DNA of 12,717 nucleotides from Chloroflexota bacterium (GTDB taxonomy: Bacteria; Chloroflexota; Limnocylindria; Limnocylindrales; CSP1-4): contig JAKAMV010000193.1 of assembly GCA_021812735.1 (NCBI GenBank), positions 1-12,717 on the forward strand, given 5' to 3'. Position 1 is the first letter of the stretch. The number at the start of each line of letters is the position of its first letter. The position numbers and the translations under genes are program-made. Shown in pieces: positions 1,797 to 12,717 of this stretch. The notes beneath the pieces are model-generated. The model was not told the DNA's origin. It was given only the letters and a program-made list of their open reading frames with translations, and ran no database searches.

Positions 1797-3104
1797 TCAG
1801 GCCCGCCAGTGCCGGTCGATCACCTCGAGGGCGATCGACGCCGCCCGGCGGGCGTTGTCGAGGTTGTGGTGCAGCGTGTACACGTCGCGCACGAGGAACT
1901 CCACTGAGCAGCCCTGCGTCGCCTCGAGCGTCCTGCGGATGTGGCCGGCCCATGCGTCCCCGTCGAGCACCTCGTCGACCGAGAGGTAGTTGGGGTTCGG
2001 CTTGCGCGAGTAGACGATGTCGTGCCCGCGCAGGGCCTCGCCCATGAACGCCTCGTCGGTCCACTGGCTGATGGACACCTTCTTGAGGTTGGGCAGCGTC
2101 CGGATGTCGTCCCAGCTCTGGTGGACCGCCTCGCAGCAGCCGTAGTACAGCAGGCCCACCGGCTTCGCGATCTCGTGGACGTACGGGTAGAGGAACTCCG
2201 ACGCCATCGCCGGGCGCATGCCCGTCGCCTCCTGGAGGTTCGTCGCCTGCCAGCGGTCCTTCCAGGTCACGTGCGCAGGGTCGTAGCCCGCCGGCGGCAG
2301 CTGGTGCGTGTAGTTGTGCCCCGACCACCAGACCTCCTGGTGGTCGTTGTTGAGCCCCAGGATCCCGGCCTCCTCCTGCTGGCGCATGATCGAGAGCGCG
2401 TTGTCGCGCAAGTAGGCCATGACGGCGTGGACCGCGTCCGGCTCCTCGTGGCAGGCGATGAAGAAGCTCTCCATCCCCATCAGGTGCACGAGCCGCTGGG
2501 TCAGGGTGTTGAAGTCGTGCCACGCCACCACGAGCCGCACGGGGAGCAGGTCGCCCAGCAGGTCCTCGACGAACGCCTTCCAGGCGAGGGAGCGCTCCTT
2601 GTCGACGGTCATCCTGGCGGGCCGGAGCCGGTGCAGGTCCTCGGTGAGGTTCGTGATCGGGTGGTCGAAGCCGTAGCCGACCGCGTTGCCCTCGGCGTCA
2701 AGAGCGTGCTCGGTGCTGACCCTGACGTCGGGGCCGAACTCGTCGTAGTCGATGGACCACGGGAGGTCGAGGACCGGCGGGACGACGCGGTCGTCCTGCC
2801 ACACCTCGTGGGGCCGCGTGTGGCGGAAGAGCTCCTTCTCGATGGCCAGCCCCGCCTCGGACAAGCAGCGGTAGCGCCTGTCGGGGAGCAGCTCGAATAT
2901 GAAGTTGGTCGCCTCGAGGATGAACGGCGGGCGCACGCTGGCCCTGCCGTCGTTGAGGTCGAACCACTGCTGGCGACGCTCCGCCATCACCGGCAGCGCC
3001 GCGTACTCGGCCTGCCGCGCCGCGAGCTCGCGGAGGTGGGCGCGCTCGTCGGGCGGGACCGTCCAGTCCGCCCCGACCCGACCTCGGGTCGTGGTGCCCG
3101 ACAC
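1797..3104 (-). CDS. UroD-superfamily methyltransferase-like protein, paralogue A
   Basis: The 435-residue product belongs to the uroporphyrinogen decarboxylase/methylcobamide methyltransferase fold and is longer than HemE (about 350). The C-terminal half is diagnostic: LYYGCCE at 319-325, KKVSISQW at 341-348 and SRKPNP at 366-371, followed by a closing helix-rich region. In MtaA/MtbA-type enzymes the strand matching YYGCC carries a His-X-Cys zinc site. Here Tyr-Tyr-Gly-Cys-Cys is found instead, so metal binding must differ or use other residues. The N-terminal LRELAARQAEYAALPV recurs in the second UroD gene of this window. The start is a GTG 13 nt after the stop of the corrinoid protein gene, with GGGGCGGGG just upstream. 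The adjacent corrinoid protein makes a corrinoid-dependent methyl transfer much more likely than haem synthesis. Substrate unknown. Confidence 0.82.
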   Translation of the reverse strand: MSGTTTRGRVGADWTVPPDERAHLRELAARQAEYAALPVMAERRQQWFDLNDGRASVRPPFILEATNFIFELLPDRRYRCLSEAGLAIEKELFRHTRPHEVWQDDRVVPPVLDLPWSIDYDEFGPDVRVSTEHALDAEGNAVGYGFDHPITNLTEDLHRLRPARMTVDKERSLAWKAFVEDLLGDLLPVRLVVAWHDFNTLTQRLVHLMGMESFFIACHEEPDAVHAVMAYLRDNALSIMRQQEEAGILGLNNDHQEVWWSGHNYTHQLPPAGYDPAHVTWKDRWQATNLQEATGMRPAMASEFLYPYVHEIAKPVGLLYYGCCEAVHQSWDDIRTLPNLKKVSISQWTDEAFMGEALRGHDIVYSRKPNPNYLSVDEVLDGDAWAGHIRRTLEATQGCSVEFLVRDVYTLHHNLDNARRAASIALEVIDRHWRA

Positions 3105-3117
3105 GACGCCCCGCCCC

Positions 3118-3747
3118 TCAGCCGCCCAGCAGGCGGCGGGCGAGGTCGACGGCCGCTCCGGCGTCGGGGGCGTGGCCGTCGGCGCCGACCTGGGCGGCGA
3201 ACTCGGGGGTGGTGGGGGCGCCGCCGATCACGACCTTCGCCGGCAGGCCAGAGGCCCTGAGCGCCTCGACCACGCCGCGCATGTTGGGCATGGTGGTGGT
3301 CAGCAGGGCCGAGAGCCCGACGAGGCGGGCCCCGCGCTCCCGGGCGGCCTCGACGAACCGGGCGGCCGGCACGTTGACGCCCAGGTCCACCACCTCGAGC
3401 CCGGCGCCCCGCCACATCATCCCGACCAGGCTCTTGCCGATGTCGTGGAGGTCGCCCTCCACGGTGCCCACCACGGCGGTGAACTCGGGGGCCACCCCCG
3501 CCGCCGCGAGGGCGGGCTCGAGGACCGCGGCGCCGGCCTTCATCGCCCGGGCGGCGATGAGCATCTCGGGCACGAACAGCTCGCCGTCCTGGAACCGCCG
3601 GCCGACGGCGTCCATGGCGGCGGTCATGGCGGCCAGGACCGACCTGGGGTCGAGGCCCTCGTCGAGCGCGGCCCGCGTGAGCTCGGCCGCGGCGGCGCGG
3701 TCGCCCGCCTCCACGGCGGCGGTCAGGGCGGCGAGGTCGGCGGCCAT
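3118..3747 (-). CDS. Corrinoid (B12)-binding methyltransferase-partner protein
   Basis: The 209-residue product has the two-part layout of MtaC/MtbC/MetH-type corrinoid proteins. A helical cap domain spans roughly residues 1-85, with RRFQDGELFVPEML at 50-63 as its signature. A Rossmann-like B12 domain follows. The base-off/His-on motif DxHxxG is complete as D99-L-H101-D-I-G104, so His101 is the predicted lower cobalt ligand. SAL at 146-148 and GGAPTT at 175-180 are the matching nucleotide-loop contacts. Length is normal for a stand-alone carrier. The protein should shuttle a methyl group between a substrate-specific methyltransferase and an acceptor methyltransferase in the cytoplasm. The ATG at 3747 follows an AGGGAG ribosome binding site by about 9 nt. 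UroD-A follows after 13 bp as an operon partner. No reductive activator (RamA-like) gene is in the window. Confidence 0.93.
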   Translation of the reverse strand: MAADLAALTAAVEAGDRAAAAELTRAALDEGLDPRSVLAAMTAAMDAVGRRFQDGELFVPEMLIAARAMKAGAAVLEPALAAAGVAPEFTAVVGTVEGDLHDIGKSLVGMMWRGAGLEVVDLGVNVPAARFVEAARERGARLVGLSALLTTTMPNMRGVVEALRASGLPAKVVIGGAPTTPEFAAQVGADGHAPDAGAAVDLARRLLGG

Positions 3748-3770
3748 GGGTCGGGTCTCCCTGGGGGCTG

Positions 3771-3805
3771 CGGCCGGCGGGGCGGAGGAGGCGCCCCGCC
3801 GGCCG
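3771..3805 (-). promoter_or_regulatory. Strong leader hairpin upstream of the corrinoid protein start codon
   Basis: Arms at 3771-3784 and 3792-3805 are perfectly complementary over 14 bp, nearly all G-C, closing a 7-nt loop. Read on the minus strand as RNA, the loop is CCUCCUC, which resembles the anti-Shine-Dalgarno end of 16S rRNA and can pair with part of the AGGGAG ribosome binding site about 10 nt downstream. The hairpin ends about 23 nt before the start codon. It may control translation or simply protect the 5' end. As it sits between operons it could instead act as a terminator, but no U-tract follows. Confidence 0.5.
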
Positions 3806-3858
3806 GGAGTTCGAGAACATTGATTGATGGTCCTGTCCAGTGCTCAGCGCGTCTCGTG

Positions 3859-3877
3859 CGCCGCCTCCGAGGCGGCG
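3859..3877 (-). terminator. Candidate terminator stem-loop after the oxidoreductase gene
   Basis: CGCCGCCT at 3859-3866 and AGGCGGCG at 3870-3877 form an 8-bp GC stem with a 3-nt loop, about 50 nt past the oxidoreductase stop on the minus strand. A second, weaker stem, GTGGCA (3894-3899) with TGCCAC (3908-3913), lies 13 nt past the stop. Neither has a U-tract, which is common for terminators of GC-rich actinobacteria, so the call rests on stem quality and position. Confidence 0.4.
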
Positions 3878-3925
3878 AGATGCCATCGGGTGGGTGGCAG
3901 ACTGGAGTGCCACTGCCGTGGGTCT

Positions 3926-5071
3926 TCAGCAGCCCTCCGTGCGGATGGAGATTCCGTCACCGGCGGCGACTGCGGCGACCAGCTGCTGCAGACACGCGAG
4001 ATCAGCCGCTGCGCCGGAGGCTGTCGACCGGACGGTCGCACCAGCCTGGATCGAGTCGGCAAAGGCCTCGAGCGAGCGACGGAAGCCGGTCGTGCGGCTG
4101 GCGCGCAGCGTCGTGTCCGACCGCGTCCCGTCCGGCTCCAGGCGCTCGACTCGAAGGGCTGCGCGCGCGTCTCCGAGGTACGGGGCCGGCATGGATAGGT
4201 GCACCCGGCCAGCCGTCCCGTACACGGCGAGCTCCTCGAAGTACTCAGGGTAGTCGGGCAGCCAGGCCCAGACCAGACTCAGGACGGTGCCGCTGCCGAT
4301 GTCCGCAAGAGCCTCGATCGTGGGCGGCTCGTCCCCCGGACGCGACGGATCGAATGGCCAGGCCCGCGCCGCGAGGAAGCGGGACGGGAGCGGGATCTCG
4401 AGTGCGCGGAGCACCGACAGCTCATGGCAGACCGACGTCAGGAGTGGCGACAGGTAGAGCCGCTGGAGGCCCGTCGGCGCATCTCCCAATACCGCGGTGA
4501 CGCGGTCCCAAGCCTCACGTTCGGCGGCCCGCGCAGCCCCGCGATCGACGTCCTCGGCGCGCTCGAGGGCAAGATGCTCCGTCTGCCAGGAGTCGGCCGG
4601 GTGCAGAACCGTCACCCGGACGAGCCGCCGGGCGCCGACTGTCGCCAGCGCGCCCCTCGCGCGCTCAATGATGGGGTCGTACATCTTCATGTAGGAGACC
4701 TGGAGCACGCGGTTGCGCTCGACGGCGACGCGCTCCAGGTCCTTGGCGGCACCGACCGTGAACGAGAGGGGCTTCTCCACGAGCACGTGCTTGTCCGCCT
4801 CGAGTGCACCCCGCACCTGCGGCGTGTGATCGCCGGGCGTCAGCAGGAGGATCGCATCGACCTCCGGATCGGCGCACACGGCGCGCCAGTCCGTGGATGC
4901 CCGGACGTCCCCGAGCAGCGCGCTCGCGCTCGACCTGGCAAGCGCCGGAGACAGGTCGCAGACGTGGACGACTCGGAAGCGATCAGACAGCGCTGCCAAG
5001 TTCGGCCGGTGTTGAGCCTGCCAGATCAGGCCCAACCCGATCACCCCCAGCCTGACCCGCTCGCCTGCCAC
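3926..5071 (-). CDS. Gfo/Idh/MocA-family NAD(P)-dependent oxidoreductase
   Basis: From a GTG at 5071 this encodes 381 residues. The N-terminal Rossmann fold shows RLGVIGLGLIW at about residues 7-17 as the dinucleotide loop, and CDLSP at 38-42 ends strand two. The family motif EKP is at residues 99-101 and supplies the usual catalytic lysine (K100). SYMKMYDP at 126-133 marks the start of the substrate domain, and CHELSVLRAL supplies the conserved histidine region. Members oxidise, reduce or epimerise sugars, inositols and related polyols. The open frame reaches back to 5164, but the in-frame ATG at 5131 lies inside the operator. The GTG at 5071 has an AGGGAGGG box 6 nt upstream, which decides the start. 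The gene has its own promoter and LacI-type site, so it is part of the transporter regulon. Substrate and direction of reaction are not visible. Confidence 0.9.
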   Translation of the reverse strand: MAGERVRLGVIGLGLIWQAQHRPNLAALSDRFRVVHVCDLSPALARSSASALLGDVRASTDWRAVCADPEVDAILLLTPGDHTPQVRGALEADKHVLVEKPLSFTVGAAKDLERVAVERNRVLQVSYMKMYDPIIERARGALATVGARRLVRVTVLHPADSWQTEHLALERAEDVDRGAARAAEREAWDRVTAVLGDAPTGLQRLYLSPLLTSVCHELSVLRALEIPLPSRFLAARAWPFDPSRPGDEPPTIEALADIGSGTVLSLVWAWLPDYPEYFEELAVYGTAGRVHLSMPAPYLGDARAALRVERLEPDGTRSDTTLRASRTTGFRRSLEAFADSIQAGATVRSTASGAAADLACLQQLVAAVAAGDGISIRTEGC

Positions 5072-5128
5072 CCGACGCCCTCCCTGTCTCGTGCCGGCAG
5101 GTGCGGCGGATGCTGCCCCGTCTCCCGA

Positions 5129-5146
5129 CATGGTATCGATCACATG
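5129..5146. promoter_or_regulatory. Putative LacI-family operator, site 1 (oxidoreductase promoter)
   Basis: CATGGTATCGATCACATG is an imperfect palindrome: both CATG arms and the central ATCGAT are exactly symmetric, and only the two intervening base pairs on each side differ. The centre is a CpG step, as in most LacI-family operators. It begins 3 bp downstream of the -10 box. Near-identical copies occur at 9817-9834 (one mismatch) and 6412-6429 (two mismatches), with a LacI-type gene between them. Confidence 0.8.
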
Positions 5147-5149
5147 GTG

Positions 5150-5178
5150 ACTATAGCCTCGCATCGTCCCGGTGGCAA
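5150..5178 (-). promoter_or_regulatory. Sigma70-type promoter of the oxidoreductase gene
   Basis: On the minus strand TTGCCA (5178-5173) and TATAGT (5155-5150) each match the consensus -35 and -10 boxes at five of six positions and are separated by exactly 17 bp. Transcription would begin near 5143, inside the palindromic operator 5129-5146, which is a classic repressor position. The 5' leader would be about 70 nt. Confidence 0.75.
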
Positions 5179-5221
5179 GGGACGGCAGAGGGCCAGCGCA
5201 GTGCCGAGGAGCGACGCGGTT

Positions 5222-6256
5222 CTACCGGCGGCGCGCCAGGGCAGCGGTCTGGCGAGCCCCTGCCCCGGCGGCTGGGCCCGTGGACCCCCGGACGACGAGC
5301 CGCACCGGCAGGACGTAGTTGCCGCGGATCGCCTCGCCGGCCCTCAGGCGGGAGATGATCTCGACGGCCAGGCGGCCCATGCCGAACTTGTCCTGGGCGA
5401 TGGTCGTGAGGCCCGGGTTGACGTACGCGGCCAGCGCGATGTCGTCGAATCCCACCACGCTCACGTCCTGCGACACGCGAATGCCGAGGTCGAAGAGTGC
5501 GTGCATCACCCCGACCGCGATGAGATCGTTGTGGGCGGTGATGGCATATGGAGGACGGAGTCGGGCGGCCACCTGCCGCGCGGCAGCGCCGCCGGCGCTG
5601 TACCCGTCACCCTCCAAGACCTCGAGCGTGACCTCCCCCGGTGCGGCGGCAACGGCGGCGCGAACGCCGGCCAACCGTTCTGAGGTCGAGCCGCTGGCCG
5701 GTCCGCAGATGTGCACCAGCTGACGGTGGCCCAAGCCGATCAGGTGCTGCGCCGCCGCGCGGCCCCCGGCCTCGTCGTCGCTCAGGATGGCCGGGACCAG
5801 ACCTCGGCCCAGGCTCGCATTGATGAGCACGAGCGGAGCCGGAAAGGCCGCCAGCAGGTCTTCGTGCCGCTTGGTGAGGCCACCGGCCGCCACGATGATG
5901 CCGTCGACGCGCCGCTCCAGCAGCAGGTCGAGATAGGCGATCTCGCGCTCCGGATCCTCGGCCGCATTGCACAGGATGATCGAGTCGCCGAGCTCGCGCG
6001 CCGTGTCCTCTGCGCCGCGCACGATCTCCGGGTAGAAGGGGTTGTTCACGTCGGTGACGATGAGCCCAAGCGTCCCCGTGCGCTGCTGGCGGAGTGACCG
6101 GGCCACGCTCGAGGGCCGGTAGTCCAGTTCGGCCATGGCCGCCTTGACCCGCTCCAGCGTATCCGGGCTGACGCGAGGCGAGCCCTGCAGGACGCGGGTC
6201 ACGGTGGCAGGCGACACGCCGGCGAGGGTCGCGACATCGGTGATCGTGGCGGGCAT
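5222..6256 (-). CDS. LacI-family transcriptional regulator
   Basis: The 344-residue product is a full-length LacI-type repressor. The N-terminal helix-turn-helix ITDVATLAGVSPATVTRVLQG is followed by the hinge segment YRPSSVARSLR, whose leucine normally inserts at the central CpG of the operator. The rest is a periplasmic-binding-protein-like effector domain: GLIVTDVNNPFY, LINASLGRG, SDDEAGGRAAAQHL, SERLAGVRAA and VVGFDDIALAAYVNPGLTTIAQD are all standard blocks. Effectors of this family are usually sugars or their phosphates. The ATG at 6256 gives the canonical start a few residues before the helix-turn-helix, and the ribosome binding site is weak. A minus-strand TATGAT at 6300-6295 is a likely -10 box giving a leader of roughly 30 nt. 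Three matching palindromes around this gene are its probable targets, and the one at 6412 suggests autoregulation or looping. Confidence 0.95.
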   Translation of the reverse strand: MPATITDVATLAGVSPATVTRVLQGSPRVSPDTLERVKAAMAELDYRPSSVARSLRQQRTGTLGLIVTDVNNPFYPEIVRGAEDTARELGDSIILCNAAEDPEREIAYLDLLLERRVDGIIVAAGGLTKRHEDLLAAFPAPLVLINASLGRGLVPAILSDDEAGGRAAAQHLIGLGHRQLVHICGPASGSTSERLAGVRAAVAAAPGEVTLEVLEGDGYSAGGAAARQVAARLRPPYAITAHNDLIAVGVMHALFDLGIRVSQDVSVVGFDDIALAAYVNPGLTTIAQDKFGMGRLAVEIISRLRAGEAIRGNYVLPVRLVVRGSTGPAAGAGARQTAALARRR

Positions 6257-6543
6257 GGTGATCGTCGATCTCAGGCTCTGGGGACTCGCTTCCGATCATA
6301 TTCGGTCCGACGGCTGGCATAGCGCCGGTTCCGTGGCGGCGGACCGCTCAGGGATTGCCGCCAGCGGCTCCCTTGGCGGCGACGTGCCGTTCCTCCGGGA
6401 CCTCCGTTCCTCATGGTATCGCTCACACGACCACTGCTTCCGGGCGGGGCTGCGCTGCCCCCTTGCGTGGGGCGCTGTGTCGTCGGCAACCCCGTCGGCA
6501 CGGCAACCCGGGCTCGTGTTCGGTGCGTCGGACGTCGGATCTG
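6257..6543. promoter_or_regulatory. Intergenic region between the permease and the LacI-type gene
   Basis: This 287-bp gap lies between two minus-strand genes. It holds the third operator copy (6412-6429), a 7-bp stem GCCGCCA/TGGCGGC at 6357-6363 and 6374-6380 with a 10-nt loop, and the -10-like TATGAT (minus strand, 6300-6295), without a good -35 box. A 47-codon Arg-rich open frame starts at the ATG inside the operator and stops just before the regulator. It has no family resemblance and is left uncalled. Confidence 0.5.
6412..6429. promoter_or_regulatory. Putative LacI-family operator, site 2 (upstream of the regulator gene)
   Basis: CATGGTATCGCTCACACG differs from site 1 at two positions, one in the central hexamer and one in the right arm. 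It lies about 155 bp before the regulator start and about 110 bp before its -10-like box. No good promoter abuts it, unlike the other two sites. It may serve negative autoregulation, an auxiliary looping site, or a weak promoter not recognisable by eye. Confidence 0.6.
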
Positions 6544-7371
6544 CTACTCCTTGAGGGCACCGCCCAGCAGACCGCTGACGAACCTCCGCTGCGTGACGAC
6601 ATAGGCGATCAGAACTGGAGCCGCCACCATCAGCGCCGCCGCTGCGATGTTGCCCGGCGAGGTGTTGTAGTCCGAACCAGCGAAGAACGACAGCGCCAGC
6701 GGAGTCGTGTGCGCTGCCGGGTTGGCCGCCAGCAGCACGAGCGACAGCAGGAACTCGTTCCAGGTGTAGAGGAAGAGCAGCGTCGCCAGTGTGCCGATCG
6801 CGGGAGACGCCATCGGGGCGAGGATCCAGACGAGGATCTGCACCGTGTTGGCCCCGTCGATCGCTGCGGCCTCGCGGAGCGAGGTCGGAAGGCTGCCGAA
6901 GTACCCCCGCATCCAGACGGTTCCGAGGGCGACCGAGAAGGCCGTGCACGGCAGGATCACCGAGACATAGCTGCCGAGCAGGCCGATCTGCTTCATGGTC
7001 TGGTAGATCGGCACGACGGTCGCCTCGTACGGCACGACCAGCCCCAGGATGAAGAGGCCGAGGATTGCCGCCTGCAGCGGGAACCGAAGCACGCCCAGCG
7101 CATAGCCGGCCAGGGTCGAGAGGATCACCGAGAGCACGACAACCGATGTGGTCACGATGGCGCTCGAGAGCAGCGCGTGGGCGAAGTCGCCGCGGACCCA
7201 GGCATTCTCGAAGTTCGTGAGGCTGATCGCCGTCGGGATGTAGAAGCCCTGCGGAGGTGCTGCCGACGGGTTCACCGCCAGGAGGACGATCGACAGCAAC
7301 GGGTACACCGCGATGATCGAGGCGATGGCGAGGAGCGCGTGGGTGATGATGACGCCGCGCCTGGACTCCAC
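6544..7371 (-). CDS. Carbohydrate-type ABC transporter permease, MalG-like
   Basis: The product is a 275-residue inner-membrane permease of the CUT1 type with about six hydrophobic segments. The first follows a short charged N-terminus, and the cytoplasmic EAA loop EAAAIDGAN is at about residues 167-175, followed by the conserved P-x-x-x-P region that contacts the ATPase. The C-terminus RRFVSGLLGGALKE is the usual MalG-type ending. The frame is open up to 7422, but the GTG at 7371 lies 1 nt after the stop of the preceding permease and is preceded by an AGAGAGAGG ribosome binding site, so it is the likely start. It should form a heterodimer with the other permease. No ABC ATPase gene is in the window. 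Confidence 0.93.
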   Translation of the reverse strand: MESRRGVIITHALLAIASIIAVYPLLSIVLLAVNPSAAPPQGFYIPTAISLTNFENAWVRGDFAHALLSSAIVTTSVVVLSVILSTLAGYALGVLRFPLQAAILGLFILGLVVPYEATVVPIYQTMKQIGLLGSYVSVILPCTAFSVALGTVWMRGYFGSLPTSLREAAAIDGANTVQILVWILAPMASPAIGTLATLLFLYTWNEFLLSLVLLAANPAAHTTPLALSFFAGSDYNTSPGNIAAAALMVAAPVLIAYVVTQRRFVSGLLGGALKE

Positions 7372-7372
7372 G

Positions 7373-8320
7373 TCAGGCCTCTCTCTCTCGGAGCGCGGCC
7401 ATGATGATCGAGACCACGACAAGGATGAACAGCGTGAGGATCACAGCGAACGCCGCGGCCGCTCCGACCTGGTGGCTGACGAACGCGTTCTGGTAGACGT
7501 ACACGCTGGGCACCATGGTCTGCGCGCCCGGGCCGCCCTGCGTGGTGTTCCAGATGATGTCGAAGTTCCGCAGGGCGAAGATCGTCGTCAGCAGCAGGAC
7601 GACGCGAAGTTCGGCGCGCAGGTGGGGGACCGTCACCACGAAGAACTCCCGGACCGCGCCTGCACCATCGACGCGGGCAGCCTCGTACAGCTCGCGCGGG
7701 ATCCGCTGCGCGCCTGCGAGGAACAGCATCATGCAGAGTCCGAACTCGACCCAGGTGCCGATGACGCCGATGGCGGGGAGGGCGGTGCCGAAGTCGCCGA
7801 GCCACGGCCGGGCGAGCGACCCGAGGCCGATGAAGCGCAGGAGCGCGTTCAGCGGACCGTTGTAGTCGAAGATGCCGCGCCACGCGATCGCGACCACGAC
7901 CGACGACAGGATCTGCGGCAGGAACAGGAGGGCTCGGAATCCGGTCAGCCAGCGCACGCGGATGCGAGTCATCATCCCAGCGAGCACCAGACCGATGGTG
8001 GCCGGGATCCACGAGTAGAAGATGAGGAGGACGCAGGAGTGCAGGACGGCGCTCAGGAGGTTCTTGCTCTGGAGGAGCTGAACGTAGTTCGACCATCCGA
8101 CCCACGTCGAGGGGCCGATGCCGTCCCACTCAAACAGTGAGTACCAGACGGTCTCGCCGATGGGCTTGAGCGCGAAGAGGATGTAGACGAGGAGCGCGGG
8201 CGCGACGAAGAGGTAACCCGAGAGGTCCCAGCGGCGCAGTGCCCGCACCCGGCGCCAAGGTCGGGGGCGGGCACTGCCGGGAAGGACGCGGGTCGGCCCG
8301 CTGTCCTTCTTCAATGTCAC
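7373..8320 (-). CDS. Carbohydrate-type ABC transporter permease, MalF-like
   Basis: The 315-residue inner-membrane protein starts with a basic cytoplasmic tail of about 33 residues. The first hydrophobic segment (GYLFVAPALLVYILFAL) and NGPLNALL near residue 155 are typical of MalF/UgpA-type permeases. The EAA loop reads EAARVDGAG at 213-221 and is followed by an F/V-rich helix and P-H-L. TQGGPG near residue 270 is the characteristic extracytoplasmic segment of CUT1 MalF-type subunits. The start is a GTG at 8320, 7 nt after the binding-protein stop. The ribosome binding site is poor, suggesting translational coupling to the upstream gene. It forms the membrane channel with the next permease and receives substrate from the lipoprotein encoded just upstream. 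Confidence 0.93.
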   Translation of the reverse strand: MTLKKDSGPTRVLPGSARPRPWRRVRALRRWDLSGYLFVAPALLVYILFALKPIGETVWYSLFEWDGIGPSTWVGWSNYVQLLQSKNLLSAVLHSCVLLIFYSWIPATIGLVLAGMMTRIRVRWLTGFRALLFLPQILSSVVVAIAWRGIFDYNGPLNALLRFIGLGSLARPWLGDFGTALPAIGVIGTWVEFGLCMMLFLAGAQRIPRELYEAARVDGAGAVREFFVVTVPHLRAELRVVLLLTTIFALRNFDIIWNTTQGGPGAQTMVPSVYVYQNAFVSHQVGAAAAFAVILTLFILVVVSIIMAALREREA

Positions 8321-8327
8321 TTATGGG

Positions 8328-9746
8328 TCACTTGCGGCTGCTCTGGAATGCAGCCCAGTCGTCCTGAATCTCCTGGAGGGCCGCAGACGGCTGGGTGTGA
8401 CCCGCCATGACGGCCTGGATGGCGCCGCCCATGGTCTGGTCCATCGTGCTCGTCGCCCAGTCGAAGGAGTAGGTGTTGCCGCCGGACGACAGGATCTGCC
8501 CCGACGCGGTGATGGTGTCCTGGGCCAGCGGATTGCTCGCCTGGACGCCCTCGCTCAGCGCGGGCACCCGGCCGTCGTCGACGAACACGCTGGCGTTCTT
8601 CTGGTCGAGCAGCATGGCGATCCAGGCCACGTCGGCCGCGAGCTTCTTGGACGACGCGGTGATGTGCCACCCCATCCCCATCGAGCCCTGCGCGACGTAC
8701 TTGCCGGAGGCACCCTTGGGCATCGCGAAGAAGCCGAAGCCGGACGGGTTGGTCTTGATGACCGGCGGGGCCTCCCAGGTGCCCTCCACCATGAACACGC
8801 CGGTGCCGTTCGCGAACATCGAGACCGCGTCGTCACGTGCGACGCCGCTGACGCCAGGCTCGAAGTAGCCCTTCGTCGCCCAGTCCTGCATGGTCGTCAT
8901 GGCGTCCTGATTGATCGAGTTGACGAATGTCGTCCCGCTCTTCCCCGCGATCCAATCGCGGACATCCTGAGGGTTCACGGATGCACCCTGGATGGCGCCG
9001 AACAGGTGATAGAGGTCGCTCGTGGACGATCCGCCAGTCACGAGGGCCACCTCGCCTGCGGCCTTGGCCGCGGCGAGATCGTTGACGAATTCACTGTAGC
9101 TGGTCGGCACGTTCAGGCCGAGCTTCTGCAGCTTCGCCTTGTTGTAGTAGACACCCACCATCGAACTGACCGGCGCCATGCCGTAGATGTCGCCGGAGCC
9201 GAAGCTCTTTCCGTCGGCCGTCCAGCTGAACTCGCTGAGCGTGGAGCTGCCGTAGGTGTCCTGCCACCCATAGGCACTCGCCACGTCGTCGAGCGGGCGG
9301 ATGAGCTTGTCCTTCACCAGGACGCTGTCGAGGGTGTATCCCTGGGCTCCCTGGAAGACGTCGGGCGCGTTGGGCCCGGCCGCCGTGTTGGCATCGGTCT
9401 TGAGCTCGTCGTTCCAGTCGAGGAACTGGATGTCGACTTTGACGTTCGGGTAGATCCCCTCGTACATTGGCACGAAGGTCTTCATCACGTCCTCCTCGCC
9501 AGTGTCGGCGAGGACGTTCAGCGTGACCTGCCCCAGCCCGGCGACGTCGGCGGCAGTGACCTTCGCGGTGATCTGACCGGATCCGCTGCTGCTGACGCTG
9601 CTCCCGGGTGCGCTGCTGCTGACGCTGCTGCCGGGTGCGGTGCTGCTCCCGGGTGCGGTGCTGCTGCCGGGTGCGCTGCACCCGACGAGAGCGACGACCG
9701 CGCACATCGCAACAGCTGCTGCCCCCATCGTTCGCCGAACCTTCAT
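8328..9746 (-). CDS. Extracellular solute-binding lipoprotein, family 1 (sugar ABC type)
   Basis: The 472-residue product has a lipoprotein signal: basic MKVRR, a hydrophobic core, and the lipobox LVGC with the lipidated cysteine at about residue 23. A low-complexity linker of Ser/Gly/Pro/Ala repeats follows for roughly 35 residues. The mature domain has the features of family-1 binding proteins: LADTGEED, DWNDELKTD, APDVFQGAQG near the first lobe, GVYYNKAKLQKLG, and VFMVEGTWE. The ligand is probably a sugar, polyol or related compound. Two ATGs are adjacent, at 9749 and 9746. The GAGGG box lies only 3 nt before the first but 6 nt before the second, so 9746 is favoured. It is the first gene of the transporter operon and has a clear promoter with an overlapping operator. 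Confidence 0.93.
   Translation of the reverse strand: MKVRRTMGAAAVAMCAVVALVGCSAPGSSTAPGSSTAPGSSVSSSAPGSSVSSSGSGQITAKVTAADVAGLGQVTLNVLADTGEEDVMKTFVPMYEGIYPNVKVDIQFLDWNDELKTDANTAAGPNAPDVFQGAQGYTLDSVLVKDKLIRPLDDVASAYGWQDTYGSSTLSEFSWTADGKSFGSGDIYGMAPVSSMVGVYYNKAKLQKLGLNVPTSYSEFVNDLAAAKAAGEVALVTGGSSTSDLYHLFGAIQGASVNPQDVRDWIAGKSGTTFVNSINQDAMTTMQDWATKGYFEPGVSGVARDDAVSMFANGTGVFMVEGTWEAPPVIKTNPSGFGFFAMPKGASGKYVAQGSMGMGWHITASSKKLAADVAWIAMLLDQKNASVFVDDGRVPALSEGVQASNPLAQDTITASGQILSSGGNTYSFDWATSTMDQTMGGAIQAVMAGHTQPSAALQEIQDDWAAFQSSRK
9585..9674. repeat. In-frame tandem repeats coding the lipoprotein linker
   Basis: Two 27-bp units (9585-9611 and 9612-9638, one mismatch) are followed by two 18-bp units (9639-9656 and 9657-9674, one mismatch). 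All four are built on a CCGGGTGC and CTGCT theme and keep the reading frame. They encode Ser/Gly/Pro-rich peptides on the minus strand, forming a flexible tether between the lipid anchor and the binding domain. The number of units is likely to vary between relatives by slippage. Confidence 0.85.
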
Positions 9747-9816
9747 CATCGTCCCTCTTTCACCGACTCCGCTGAGGCGAGGATCCCCGATCGGCTACCA
9801 GACGTGACGTCCCGCA

Positions 9817-9834
9817 CGTGGTATCGATCACATG
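9817..9834. promoter_or_regulatory. Putative LacI-family operator, site 3 (divergent transporter/UroD-B region)
   Basis: CGTGGTATCGATCACATG matches site 1 at 17 of 18 positions and keeps the central ATCGAT palindrome. It begins 2 bp downstream of the -10 box of the binding-protein promoter, almost the same geometry as at site 1. It lies about 130 bp before the UroD-B start on the other strand, so a single bound repressor could control both directions. Confidence 0.8.
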
Positions 9835-9836
9835 GC

Positions 9837-9865
9837 ATACTAACGGAGCGTCGGCCGGCTGTAAA
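9837..9865 (-). promoter_or_regulatory. Sigma70-type promoter of the transporter operon
   Basis: On the minus strand TTTACA (9865-9860, five of six to consensus) and TAGTAT (9842-9837, four of six) are spaced by 17 bp. The predicted transcription start falls inside the operator 9817-9834, leaving a leader of about 85 nt before the lipoprotein gene. A promoter for the divergent UroD-B gene must also lie in 9750-9964 but has no clear boxes. Confidence 0.65.
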
Positions 9866-9964
9866 TACCGCCGGTTGGGTGGCCAGCGTCCTCCTGCCCG
9901 GCCCGTGGCCGGCCCTTGCTGCAGCGAATGCCAGAGGACAGCGGCAGTGGCGGAGGTTCGGACC

Positions 9965-11284
9965 GTGGGCAACAGAGATCGCGCGGAACTCCGGGAGCTG
10001 GGGTTCAGGGTCGCCGAGCTGGCGGCCCTGCCGGTGCAGCAGGAGGCAATCGCGAACTGGAAGGCCCTCAACGGGCTCCGGCCTGTGCGACCGATGGTCT
10101 TTCTCGACCAGCTGCCCTGGAACGAGATGGACGACGACCCGGCGCTCGTCAACCGCTGCGAGGACCCATTCCTCCGCGGCCTCGAGACCGATCTGCGTCG
10201 CACCCTCTTCCGGTGGGACCACTTCCGGGCGGACATGGTGGTCGAGCCCGAGCTCCTGATCCCCAAGGTCCTCCGCCTCGACGGCTTTGGCGTTGAGATG
10301 CGGGAGGAGACGCGGGCGACCGACTCCGCCAACGCGATCGTCTCCCACCACTTCTTCGACCAGCTCGCCGATGAGGCGGACGTGGAGAGGATCCGGACGC
10401 CGAACGTATGGCTGGACGAGGCACGAACCGCGGAGCTCGAGGCGCGGGCGCACGAGGCCTTCGACGGCGTCCTGCCGGTCCGGATGCAGGGCTGGGTGCC
10501 GAGCGCGCAGCAGTGGCCAGGCCTCTTCTCGCAGCCCGAGACCAAGCCGCTCGTCGCCGGCTGGCCCGACGAGGTCCTCTCCGCTGGCGGCGACTTCTGG
10601 GACATCATCTCATTCTGGCGGGGCGTGGACGCCGTCCTGCTCGATCTCGCCGATCGGCCCGAGCACATGCACCGCATCATCGACCGGCTGGTCACGGCCT
10701 ACCTCGGCATGCTCGACCAGATGGAGGCGAAGGGCCTGCTCGGCTACTCGGCGCCGCTGATCCACTGCACGCCCGCCTGGACCGACGAGCTCCCGCACGA
10801 TGGCTTCGACCCGGAGCGGCCTCGGGCCGAGGACCTCTGGACGATGGGCATGGCCCAGGTCTTCACCTCGGCATCGCCCGCCATGTTCCGGGAGTTCGAA
10901 GTCGAGTACACCAAGCGCTGGTACGCGCGCTTCGGCCTCGGCTACTACGGCTGCTGCGACGTCCTGGACCGGAACATCGACAACATCAGGCTGATCCCCA
11001 ACGTGCGGAAGGTCTCGATCAGCCCGTGGGCCAACCCGGTGGTCAGCGCCGAGCGCCTGGGCGGCGACTACGTGATGTCGCGCAAGCCCAACCCGGCCCG
11101 CCTGGCGATGGACGCCTGGGAGCCCGAGGGCGTCGAGCGCGAGCTGCGTGAGACGGTGGAGGCCTGCCGCCGCACCGGCACGCCTGTCGAGCTGATCCTC
11201 AAGGACGTCAGCACCGTCCGGCGGAGGCGGGACCGGCTGGAGGAGTGGGTGGCCATCGCGATGAAGGTGGCCCTCGATGGCTGA
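9965..11284 (+). CDS. UroD-superfamily methyltransferase-like protein, paralogue B
   Basis: From a GTG at 9965 this encodes 439 residues. It shares with UroD-A an N-terminal LREL...AALPV segment and, in the C-terminal half, GYYGCCD (YYGCC at about 327-331), RKVSISPW and SRKPNP (372-377), so the two are paralogues, though the middle regions differ a lot. It also carries an IHC pair near residue 267 (IHCTPAWTDELP) that UroD-A lacks and that could help bind metal. The start is chosen for the GGAGGT box 7 nt upstream. A GTG at 9947 with AGAGGA 8 nt upstream is an alternative adding six residues, and the frame further upstream runs through the operator and is not coding. It is transcribed away from the transporter operon across a shared operator. 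The expected role is corrinoid-dependent methyl transfer, but no activity is proven by sequence. Confidence 0.82.
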   Translation: MGNRDRAELRELGFRVAELAALPVQQEAIANWKALNGLRPVRPMVFLDQLPWNEMDDDPALVNRCEDPFLRGLETDLRRTLFRWDHFRADMVVEPELLIPKVLRLDGFGVEMREETRATDSANAIVSHHFFDQLADEADVERIRTPNVWLDEARTAELEARAHEAFDGVLPVRMQGWVPSAQQWPGLFSQPETKPLVAGWPDEVLSAGGDFWDIISFWRGVDAVLLDLADRPEHMHRIIDRLVTAYLGMLDQMEAKGLLGYSAPLIHCTPAWTDELPHDGFDPERPRAEDLWTMGMAQVFTSASPAMFREFEVEYTKRWYARFGLGYYGCCDVLDRNIDNIRLIPNVRKVSISPWANPVVSAERLGGDYVMSRKPNPARLAMDAWEPEGVERELRETVEACRRTGTPVELILKDVSTVRRRRDRLEEWVAIAMKVALDG

Positions 11285-11623: not shown

Positions 11624-11637
11624 GCGAGGGACCGTTG

Positions 11638-12717
11638 ATGAGGCAGTTCATCGGACGGAGTGACCTGCTCGCACGGATCGAGAGCGAGTGGGCAGCTGCG
11701 CGCGACCAGGGCGAGGGGCGGATGATCACCATCCGCGGTCGTCGACGGGTGGGCAAGACGTGGCTCGTCGAGGAGTTCATCGACCGGACCAAGCCGCCCA
11801 GCATCTTCTTCGCGGCGAGCCGGCAGACCGACGAGCGCGAACTCGCGCTGTTCGCTCAGACGCTCGTGCAGTCCACACTGCCGTCGAGCGACCGGGCCGA
11901 AGGCGTGACGTTTGCAACGTGGCAGGCAGCCCTCACGAGTGCGGCCAGCGGGGCTGACCCCGCCCGTCCGAGCGTGATCGTCCTTGACGAGTTCCCGTAC
12001 CTCCTCGGTGACACGAAGGCATCGCGCGACGCCGTCTTGGGCGCCGTTCAGACCGCCTGGGACCGAACGCTCTCCAAGCAGCCGGTCCTCCTCATTCTCG
12101 TCGGGTCCGACCAGGCGATGATGGAGATGATCACGGCCCCCAGGCAGCCCCTCCACCAGCGGCCGAGTCGGGAGATGTTCGTCCCGCCGCTCAACCCGGC
12201 AGAGGCCGCGGCGCTGTCCGGCCTCACGGGCGCCGATGCACTGGACTCGTATCTCGTCACCGGCGGGTTTCCGAAGGTGGTCCGAGCGAAGATGAGTCGA
12301 TCGCTCAAGGACTTCCTCGGCGACCAGCTCGCCGACGACGGCACCGCACTCGTAACGACGGGGCGGCTCATACTCGACTCCGAGTTTGGGACGAACACGC
12401 AGGCGCGCAGCATCCTGTCTGTCCTCGGTGATGGACTCCGCAAGCGCGGCGACATCTCCGGCGAGACTGGGATCGATGCGGCCAACATCAAGCGGCCGCT
12501 CGACTTCCTGATCGTCGAGAAGCGCGTGGCGGAGGCCCGGCGGCCGCTCTCGACTGCCGCCTCGCGCGATACCCGGTACGAGATCGTCGACCCGTTCCTT
12601 CGCTTCTACATGCGCTTCGTCGACCGCTACCGCGGCGAGATCGAGCGGGGCCGAGGGCGCGTCGCCGCCTCCCTCATCCTGCGCGACTGGTCGACGTATC
12701 GCGGCAAGGCCATCGAG
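11638..12717 (+). CDS. AAA-type ATPase of the archaeal ATPase/DUF234 family (3' end outside window)
   Basis: The frame is open from an ATG at 11638 to the right edge (360 codons, no stop), so the gene is cut by the window. The N-terminal FIGR block is followed by the Walker A GRRRVGKT (about residues 34-41), Walker B VIVLDEFPYL (about 113-122, D and E present) and a sensor-like LLILVGSD. LVTGGFPKV near residue 210 and a winged-helix-like region follow, and YEIVDPFLRFYMRFV near residue 320 marks the C-terminal DUF234-type nuclease-like domain. Members occur widely in archaea and bacteria, often in accessory regions. Their function is not settled, and toxin-like or mobile-DNA-linked roles have been suggested. 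The start has GAGGGA 6 nt upstream. Codons such as ATA, GTA and TTG appear more often than in the neighbouring genes, hinting at separate origin. Confidence 0.88.
   Translation, partial: MRQFIGRSDLLARIESEWAAARDQGEGRMITIRGRRRVGKTWLVEEFIDRTKPPSIFFAASRQTDERELALFAQTLVQSTLPSSDRAEGVTFATWQAALTSAASGADPARPSVIVLDEFPYLLGDTKASRDAVLGAVQTAWDRTLSKQPVLLILVGSDQAMMEMITAPRQPLHQRPSREMFVPPLNPAEAAALSGLTGADALDSYLVTGGFPKVVRAKMSRSLKDFLGDQLADDGTALVTTGRLILDSEFGTNTQARSILSVLGDGLRKRGDISGETGIDAANIKRPLDFLIVEKRVAEARRPLSTAASRDTRYEIVDPFLRFYMRFVDRYRGEIERGRGRVAASLILRDWSTYRGKAIE

Follow-up and report, generated by a model that had tools for sequence, protein, structure and literature searches.

The 12,717-nucleotide stretch analyzed here (the window; contig JAKAMV010000193.1 of assembly GCA_021812735.1, from a Chloroflexota bacterium) encodes a corrinoid protein (CP), two homologous UroD-type proteins (UroD-A and UroD-B), a sugar-type importer, a dehydrogenase and a LacI-type regulator. 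Our favored reading, held with moderate confidence, is that these genes form a LacI-controlled catabolic cluster that would import an O-methylated cyclitol or sugar and demethylate it by a corrinoid route. The corrinoid part of this reading is well supported by sequence comparison. The genes are as follows:

1797..3104, minus strand: UroD-A, UroD-fold putative methyltransferase (first methyltransferase, MTI), 435 aa, YYGCC motif
3118..3747, minus strand: CP, 209 aa, DLHDIGK motif; PF02310 (1.6e-26), PF02607 (5.1e-18)
3926..5071, minus strand: Gfo/Idh/MocA dehydrogenase, ~381 aa; PF01408 (1.6e-18)
5222..6256, minus strand: LacI/RbsR-type regulator, 344 aa; PF00356, PF13377; RbsR is the top NCBIfam model, below cut-off
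6544..7422, minus strand: CUT1-type permease, UgpE/GlcU-like; PF00528
7373..8320, minus strand: CUT1-type permease, UgpA/GlcT-like; PF00528
8328..9749, minus strand: CUT1-type solute-binding protein (SBP; SBP_bac_1), 473 aa; PF01547 (2.1e-22)
9965..11284, plus strand: UroD-B, homologue of UroD-A, 439 aa, YYGCC motif
11635-12717: AAA ATPase, truncated at the end of the window

Gene content and shared operator

All genes named in the initial annotation were present with open frames. Its corrinoid carrier with an intact DxHxxG motif, CUT1-type importer, Gfo/Idh/MocA dehydrogenase and LacI regulator were confirmed by Pfam and NCBIfam scans, which covered 10 window proteins, with the open reading frame (ORF) at 102-899 outside the scan. 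CP stands alone with B12 domains and carries the motif as DLHDIGK; its top NCBIfam models were MtgC, MtbC and TIGR02370, all below cut-off. UroD-A begins 13 bases past CP on the same strand, so the unit extends past position 3118, where the initial annotation had drawn its boundary. The start of UroD-B was set to 9965, giving 439 aa, and that of MocA was revised to about 5071 (GTG), because the former start at 5164 lies upstream of a promoter-like −10 element. MocA is distantly related to several dehydrogenases of sugars and inositol (top NCBIfam model IolG, 6.4e-19, below cut-off). Rfam at gathering score returned no match in the window, hence no cobalamin riboswitch at that level. The nearest genome compared, G001 (3.5 Mb, 88% complete), matches 10.48 kb of the window with 99.9-100% identity. 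No tie of the AAA ATPase to the cluster was seen.

The two paralogous UroD-fold proteins of the initial annotation also held up, by different routes. The fold of UroD-A is backed by a predicted structure of the UroD/MtaA type, and UroD-B is homologous to it (hhalign Prob 100, 30% identity, 426 columns) and should share its fold; both carry the YYGCC motif. Neither protein matched a Pfam or NCBIfam model at 1e-3, placing both below the curated cut-off of PF01208, and a PDB sequence search with their profiles retrieved no UroD structure, even at E values as high as 1. MtaA-type UroD-fold zinc methyltransferases bind zinc through HxC...C ligands; a profile alignment, itself weak (Prob 49.5), puts YYGCC on the HxC strand. 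At 1e-3, UroD-B has 2136 homologues and UroD-A 1492, in overlapping sets (7996 candidates scored for each). HemE (uroporphyrinogen decarboxylase) was ruled out as an identity for either protein by the lack of a Pfam or NCBIfam family match, and each of the genomes G302-G305 encodes a distinct protein that scores at least as well as 1e-120 with PF01208.

The same 16-base sequence, TGGTATCGATCACATG, occurs exactly at two places in the window and once with two mismatches:

5131-5146: LacI-type operator 1, exact, before MocA, 3 bases behind a promoter-like −10
5150..5178, minus strand: promoter-like TTGCCA-17-TATAGT, ahead of MocA-CP-UroD-A
6414-6429: operator copy with two mismatches, before lacI
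9819-9834: LacI-type operator 2, exact, between SBP (minus) and UroD-B (plus), 2 bases behind a promoter-like −10
9837..9865, minus strand: promoter-like TTTACA-17-TAGTAT, ahead of SBP-permeases

The operator that the initial annotation had assigned jointly to UroD-B and the importer is thus the exact copy at 9819-9834. With up to 3 mismatches, the sequence occurs 3 times in the window against 0.06 expected in shuffles, and across the whole G001 genome, with up to 2 mismatches, at three places, all of them at this locus (reversed control pattern, 0). Ten of the 14 positions of its core match their own reverse complement. Promoter-like sites number 4 in the window, with 0.5 expected, and two of these, which share their strand with SBP and mocA, end 2-3 bases ahead of the exact operators. 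Given its placement before each of these genes and its uniqueness to the locus, we conclude that one predicted operator is common to the importer, UroD-B, mocA and lacI. Co-regulation of CP-UroD-A with mocA is likely, not certain.

UroD-A loci and corrinoid genes in related genomes

A scan of genome contigs revealed UroD-A relatives at four loci (L004-L007) in metagenome-assembled genomes of Chloroflexi. At 1e-60, UroD-A occurred in 5/177 genomes of the same class, namely the same four and G375:C261, which represents the window's lineage, because its coordinates equal those of G001:C261. CP adjoins UroD-A in four of the five (window lineage, L004, L005 and L007), so the association with corrinoid proteins in other genomes, on which the initial annotation had staked its proposal, persists for UroD-A. 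UroD-A is a candidate for the MTI. A LacI gene and a sugar importer were found at 4/4 UroD-A loci long enough to read; L005, which begins at a contig end within CP, was excluded from this count.

The importer is of the CUT1 class in the window and of the CUT2 class in L004, L006 and L007. L004 combines SBP-permease-ATPase with an alcohol dehydrogenase (ADH), LacI, a short MocA frame (206 aa), CP and UroD-A. In L006, LacI is divergent from SBP-permease-ATPase-ADH-MocA-UroD-A, all on one strand; in L007 it is divergent from SBP-permease-ATPase-CP-UroD-A, and this locus gave no MocA match. The LacI proteins of these loci are 34-36% identical to that of the window and their MocAs ~30%, and the ADHs of L004 and L006 are 88% identical to each other. 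The exchanged importer class argues against one inherited block. By this comparison, UroD-A, mostly with CP, is the constant part, around which the sugar module appears to be swapped, and such an exchange favors a sugar-like substrate more than a single inherited block would.

L004 (L103) also carries one-carbon genes 2-7 kb from UroD-A: a formate-tetrahydrofolate ligase (815 bits, over cut-off), FolD and a relative of the folate-dependent second methyltransferase, MTII (NF005719, 2.2e-52), the last two below their NCBIfam cut-offs. A Cys/Met pyridoxal-phosphate enzyme adjoins the MTII relative, and an AP_endonuc_2 protein also lies beyond UroD-A. G303 encodes an MTII of the L004 type (81% identical) on a contig other than that of UroD-A. 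These folate-linked genes, together with the importer, LacI and dehydrogenase that mark a catabolic locus, speak against a biosynthetic system that methylates its substrate; although corrinoid methyl transfer is reversible in principle, we regard such a use as highly improbable.

The corrinoid activase RACE (PF14574) was found in 9/9 UroD-bearing genomes compared with 108/301 Chloroflexota genomes; within the 301-genome sample it was present in 5/5 UroD genomes and 103/296 others (Fisher P 0.006), and in 1/14 control genomes. PF00809, the MTII family, matched twice in G001, once in a 1619-aa MetH-like frame and once as a candidate on contig C35, which also has a CP and a RACE end. By eye, the C35 contig and C336 resemble a betaine cluster. 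On G001 C90 lies a UroD-CP pair without sugar genes recognized by eye.

Corrinoid genes also meet sugar genes in G302. On C15 (L139, G302:C15:1-19000), two PF01208 proteins lie by a CP, ROK and a CUT2 importer, along with a SIS sugar-isomerase-domain protein over its cut-off, and C13 (L140, G302:C13:28000-47900) carries three PF01208 proteins, a CP and an IolG-like MocA, with a CUT2 permease ~10 kb off. On C110 (L142), the L007 order LacI-SBP-permease-ATPase-CP is repeated and the contig ends inside CP. L142 (G302:C110) and L143 (G304:C47) stop at the same point of the CP gene (bases 1-213), as if a repeated copy had halted assembly. Across five genomes, 5/27 CPs lay within 5 kb of CUT2 permeases (0.57 expected, P 3e-4) and 6/27 within 10 kb (1.09 expected, P 9e-4), in a post hoc test in which UroD-A had guided the choice of two of the five places (C90, C77), one of which also supplied the query permease, and some PF02607 matches may be regulators. 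Within 5 kb, the counts were 3/6 in G302, 0/3 in G303, 1/7 in G304, 1/8 in G305 and 0/3 in G001, with neighboring permease matches merged and the MetH-like match of G001 dropped.

Several UroD-type proteins beside one CP, as in the window, L139 and L140, could also mean that the UroD pair carries out both methyltransferase steps of a single chain. One protein would methylate the CP and the other would deliver the methyl group to a non-folate acceptor such as a small thiol, like the UroD-fold coenzyme-M methyltransferases, in which case a methylthio- or methylamino-sugar could be the substrate. Consistent with this, the window proteins scanned include no MTII, the L004 MTII adjoins a Cys/Met enzyme, two PF01208 proteins and one related to UroD-A/B are consecutive at the locus L026, and the sections of a published study available to us describe clusters in which several UroD homologues accompany a CP and an activase without a folate methyltransferase (PMC10418091). 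However, in L004 the MTII relative, FolD and the ligase lie no more than 7 kb from UroD-A, an MTII candidate exists in G001, and UroD-B was absent from the four stretches around the UroD-A relatives, which makes this chain quite unlikely.

Relatives of UroD-A and UroD-B at other loci

Genes resembling UroD-A and UroD-B (A/B-like genes) were present in 5/301 Chloroflexota genomes at 1e-20. Outside the window's lineage, they lie beside CUT1 permeases in L026, L028 and L029, and 6 kb off in L031. Further neighbors include an apiosidase-like gene (L032), MocA (L033), alpha-L-fucosidase and acetylxylan esterase (L025) and a methyltransferase-domain protein with a TRAP-like set recognized by eye (L030); the L027 stretch is short. 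In L028 (2094-7628), a UroD-type gene directly follows two CUT1 permeases, and gluconolactonase-like, AP_endonuc_2 and sulfatase genes are also present.

Among plasmids, each of three queries returned the same single record, from Subdoligranulum variabile, whose A/B-like protein is 42% identical. The stretch (L034, OY725838.1, 1-19181), unannotated in the record, encodes GH2, ROK, an alpha-L-rhamnosidase, several UroD-superfamily proteins, a PocR-AraC regulator, RACE and DUF2284, with the RACE gene 2.7 kb from the A/B-like gene on the other strand; it gave no CP match. We noted it as a possible methylated-sugar locus. In the viral collection, four loci on three contigs (L116 and L119 overlap) showed no CP, CUT1, CUT2, MTII or RACE match (tblastn, 1e-6). 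UroD-B could plausibly be a second corrinoid methyltransferase.

Substrate, mechanism and relation to known systems

Clues to the substrate come from the relatives. The SBPs of L004 and L007 have a rhizopine SBP as top NCBIfam model (1.6e-44 and 1.3e-49), with scores of 152 and 169 bits, and 74 bits for L139, below the 420-bit cut-off of this model (NF052284). Their nearest solved structure is 4ru1 (L004, 1.7e-46, next 4e-12; L007, 1.5e-31, next 4e-16), termed a verified myo-inositol transporter in the text available to us (PMC10747050). The L004 ADH matches IolM (scyllo-inosose 3-dehydrogenase) at 1.9e-48, below cut-off, and IolG ranks third for the L004 MocA and second for the L006 MocA.

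Several findings weigh against the favored reading. The L004 ADH scores higher with a phosphonate-linked ADH model (4.3e-55, below cut-off), and the top model for the MocAs of L004 and L006 is levoglucosan dehydrogenase, also below cut-off. The window SBP matches no inositol-type protein among NCBIfam models at 1e-3 or solved structures (the nearest, 7eho at 1.8e-14, gives no ligand), and partial alignments of the window MocA with the MocAs of L004, L006, L029 and L033 show only 25-32% identity, so the inositol lean comes from the relatives only. The window proteins scanned include neither MTII nor RACE, UroD-A of L006 lacks a neighboring CP, and G001, at its 88% completeness, has no clear HemE (best PF01208 match, 5.5e-20). 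No CP match was found beside A/B-like genes in four other Chloroflexota genomes, one plasmid and three viral-collection contigs; A/B-like genes were near CUT1 permeases in 3/9 cases within 5 kb (1.0 expected) and 4/9 within 10 kb (2.0 expected), and a CUT1 tie in those four genomes was rejected as weak and little above chance. The GC content of third codon positions (GC3) steps from 0.99 in CP and 0.98 in UroD-A to 0.85 in MocA, 0.88 in LacI and 0.89-0.90 in the importer, so the two halves may differ in history and have been joined later. Finally, the MocA-CP gap of 178 bases holds a GC hairpin, seen by eye, and CP-UroD-A may thereby escape operator control. The hairpin (~3771-3806) has no T run, lies just before the CP start and could be an attenuator.

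The GC3 step, the gap with its hairpin and the missing CP beside A/B-like genes would also suit a different account, in which UroD-B and its wide family are non-corrinoid barrel enzymes of sugar catabolism, such as lyases, and CP-UroD-A is a separate corrinoid system that lies by chance beside a sugar operon. We consider this unlikely, since the operator also precedes MocA-CP-UroD-A, L004 and L007 likewise place CP-UroD-A with sugar importers, YYGCC is common to both UroD proteins, and the Subdoligranulum relative lies near a RACE gene. The proposal of a corrinoid methyl-transfer system under carbohydrate-type control is partly supported: the evidence favors it for CP-UroD-A; UroD-B, whose relatives gave no CP match in the loci compared, may or may not work with a CP. 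As to the compound, the binding proteins of the relatives lean to inositol-type compounds and their MocAs equally to levoglucosan-type sugars; together, the predicted functions lean to cyclitols or anhydro/keto sugars without naming one compound.

Under the favored reading of corrinoid demethylation, the importer would bring in a methyl ether, and LacI would release the operator once this ether or a product binds. The ether would bind inside the barrel of UroD-A, where the invariant Cys pair may coordinate a metal, and Co(I) of CP would take the methyl; UroD-B perhaps acts on another position or substrate. A folate methyltransferase and an activase, both encoded elsewhere in the genome, would transfer the methyl group onward to tetrahydrofolate and maintain the cobalt in its reduced state, and the dehydrogenase would oxidize a ring hydroxyl so that the polyol left after demethylation can be degraded. 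Corrinoid systems are known to use aryl methyl ethers and methanol; an alkyl ether requires activation. Two ways would fit: a metal on the Cys pair or, more boldly, a dehydrogenase that acts before demethylation and oxidizes the neighboring carbon, making the leaving group an enolate. More tentatively, and with rather low probability, the cluster could belong to a family of LacI-controlled systems for aliphatic O-methyl cyclitols and sugars, in which a MocA/IolM-like dehydrogenase first makes a ketone by the methoxy group and Co(I) attacks the methyl with an enolate leaving group; the importer would be exchangeable, the UroD-CP core constant, and related UroD sets would reach gut-bacterial carbohydrate loci.

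The cluster resembles three-component corrinoid methyltransferases (Cdm, aryl O-demethylases, MtgBC, MtaBC) in its UroD-fold candidate MTI beside a stand-alone CP with DxHxxG, and in the MTII candidate (PF00809) and RACE predicted elsewhere in the genome. It differs in that MTII and RACE lie outside the cluster, whereas a sugar importer, LacI and a dehydrogenase lie inside, and in that UroD-A and UroD-B are too remote for Pfam and NCBIfam models. The chloromethane system Cmu has UroD and CP domains fused in CmuA, while they are separate genes in the window. Similarity to rhizopine and inositol catabolism (moc, iol) lies in the importer SBPs of L004 and L007, in IolM as second-best model for the L004 ADH and in the IolG ranks of the MocAs; by contrast, the importer in the window is of the CUT1 class and an ADH gene is lacking, and we know of no corrinoid gene in moc or iol. 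To our knowledge, the substrates described for corrinoid methyltransferases are activated or small methyl compounds.

Methylated cyclitols and sugars are common plant compounds, and their demethylation had no assigned corrinoid enzyme in the literature surveyed: among the open-access matches listed, titles and abstract starts held no description of corrinoid demethylation of sugars or cyclitols, which is weak evidence of absence. If the favored reading is true, a large protein set without a family name, the homologues of UroD-A and UroD-B, would gain a testable role in plant-carbon turnover. In the sections available to us, UroD is given as the closest structural homologue of CdmB (PMC13222342), and Type 1 mlp clusters (Kountz and Balskus, PMC10418091) are described as combining several UroD-superfamily proteins with a CP, as here, in obligate anaerobes, with methyl-sulfur or -selenide metabolism proposed. 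Those clusters include RACE, whereas none of the 10 window proteins scanned is a RACE, and the cluster in the window carries a CUT1 importer and LacI.

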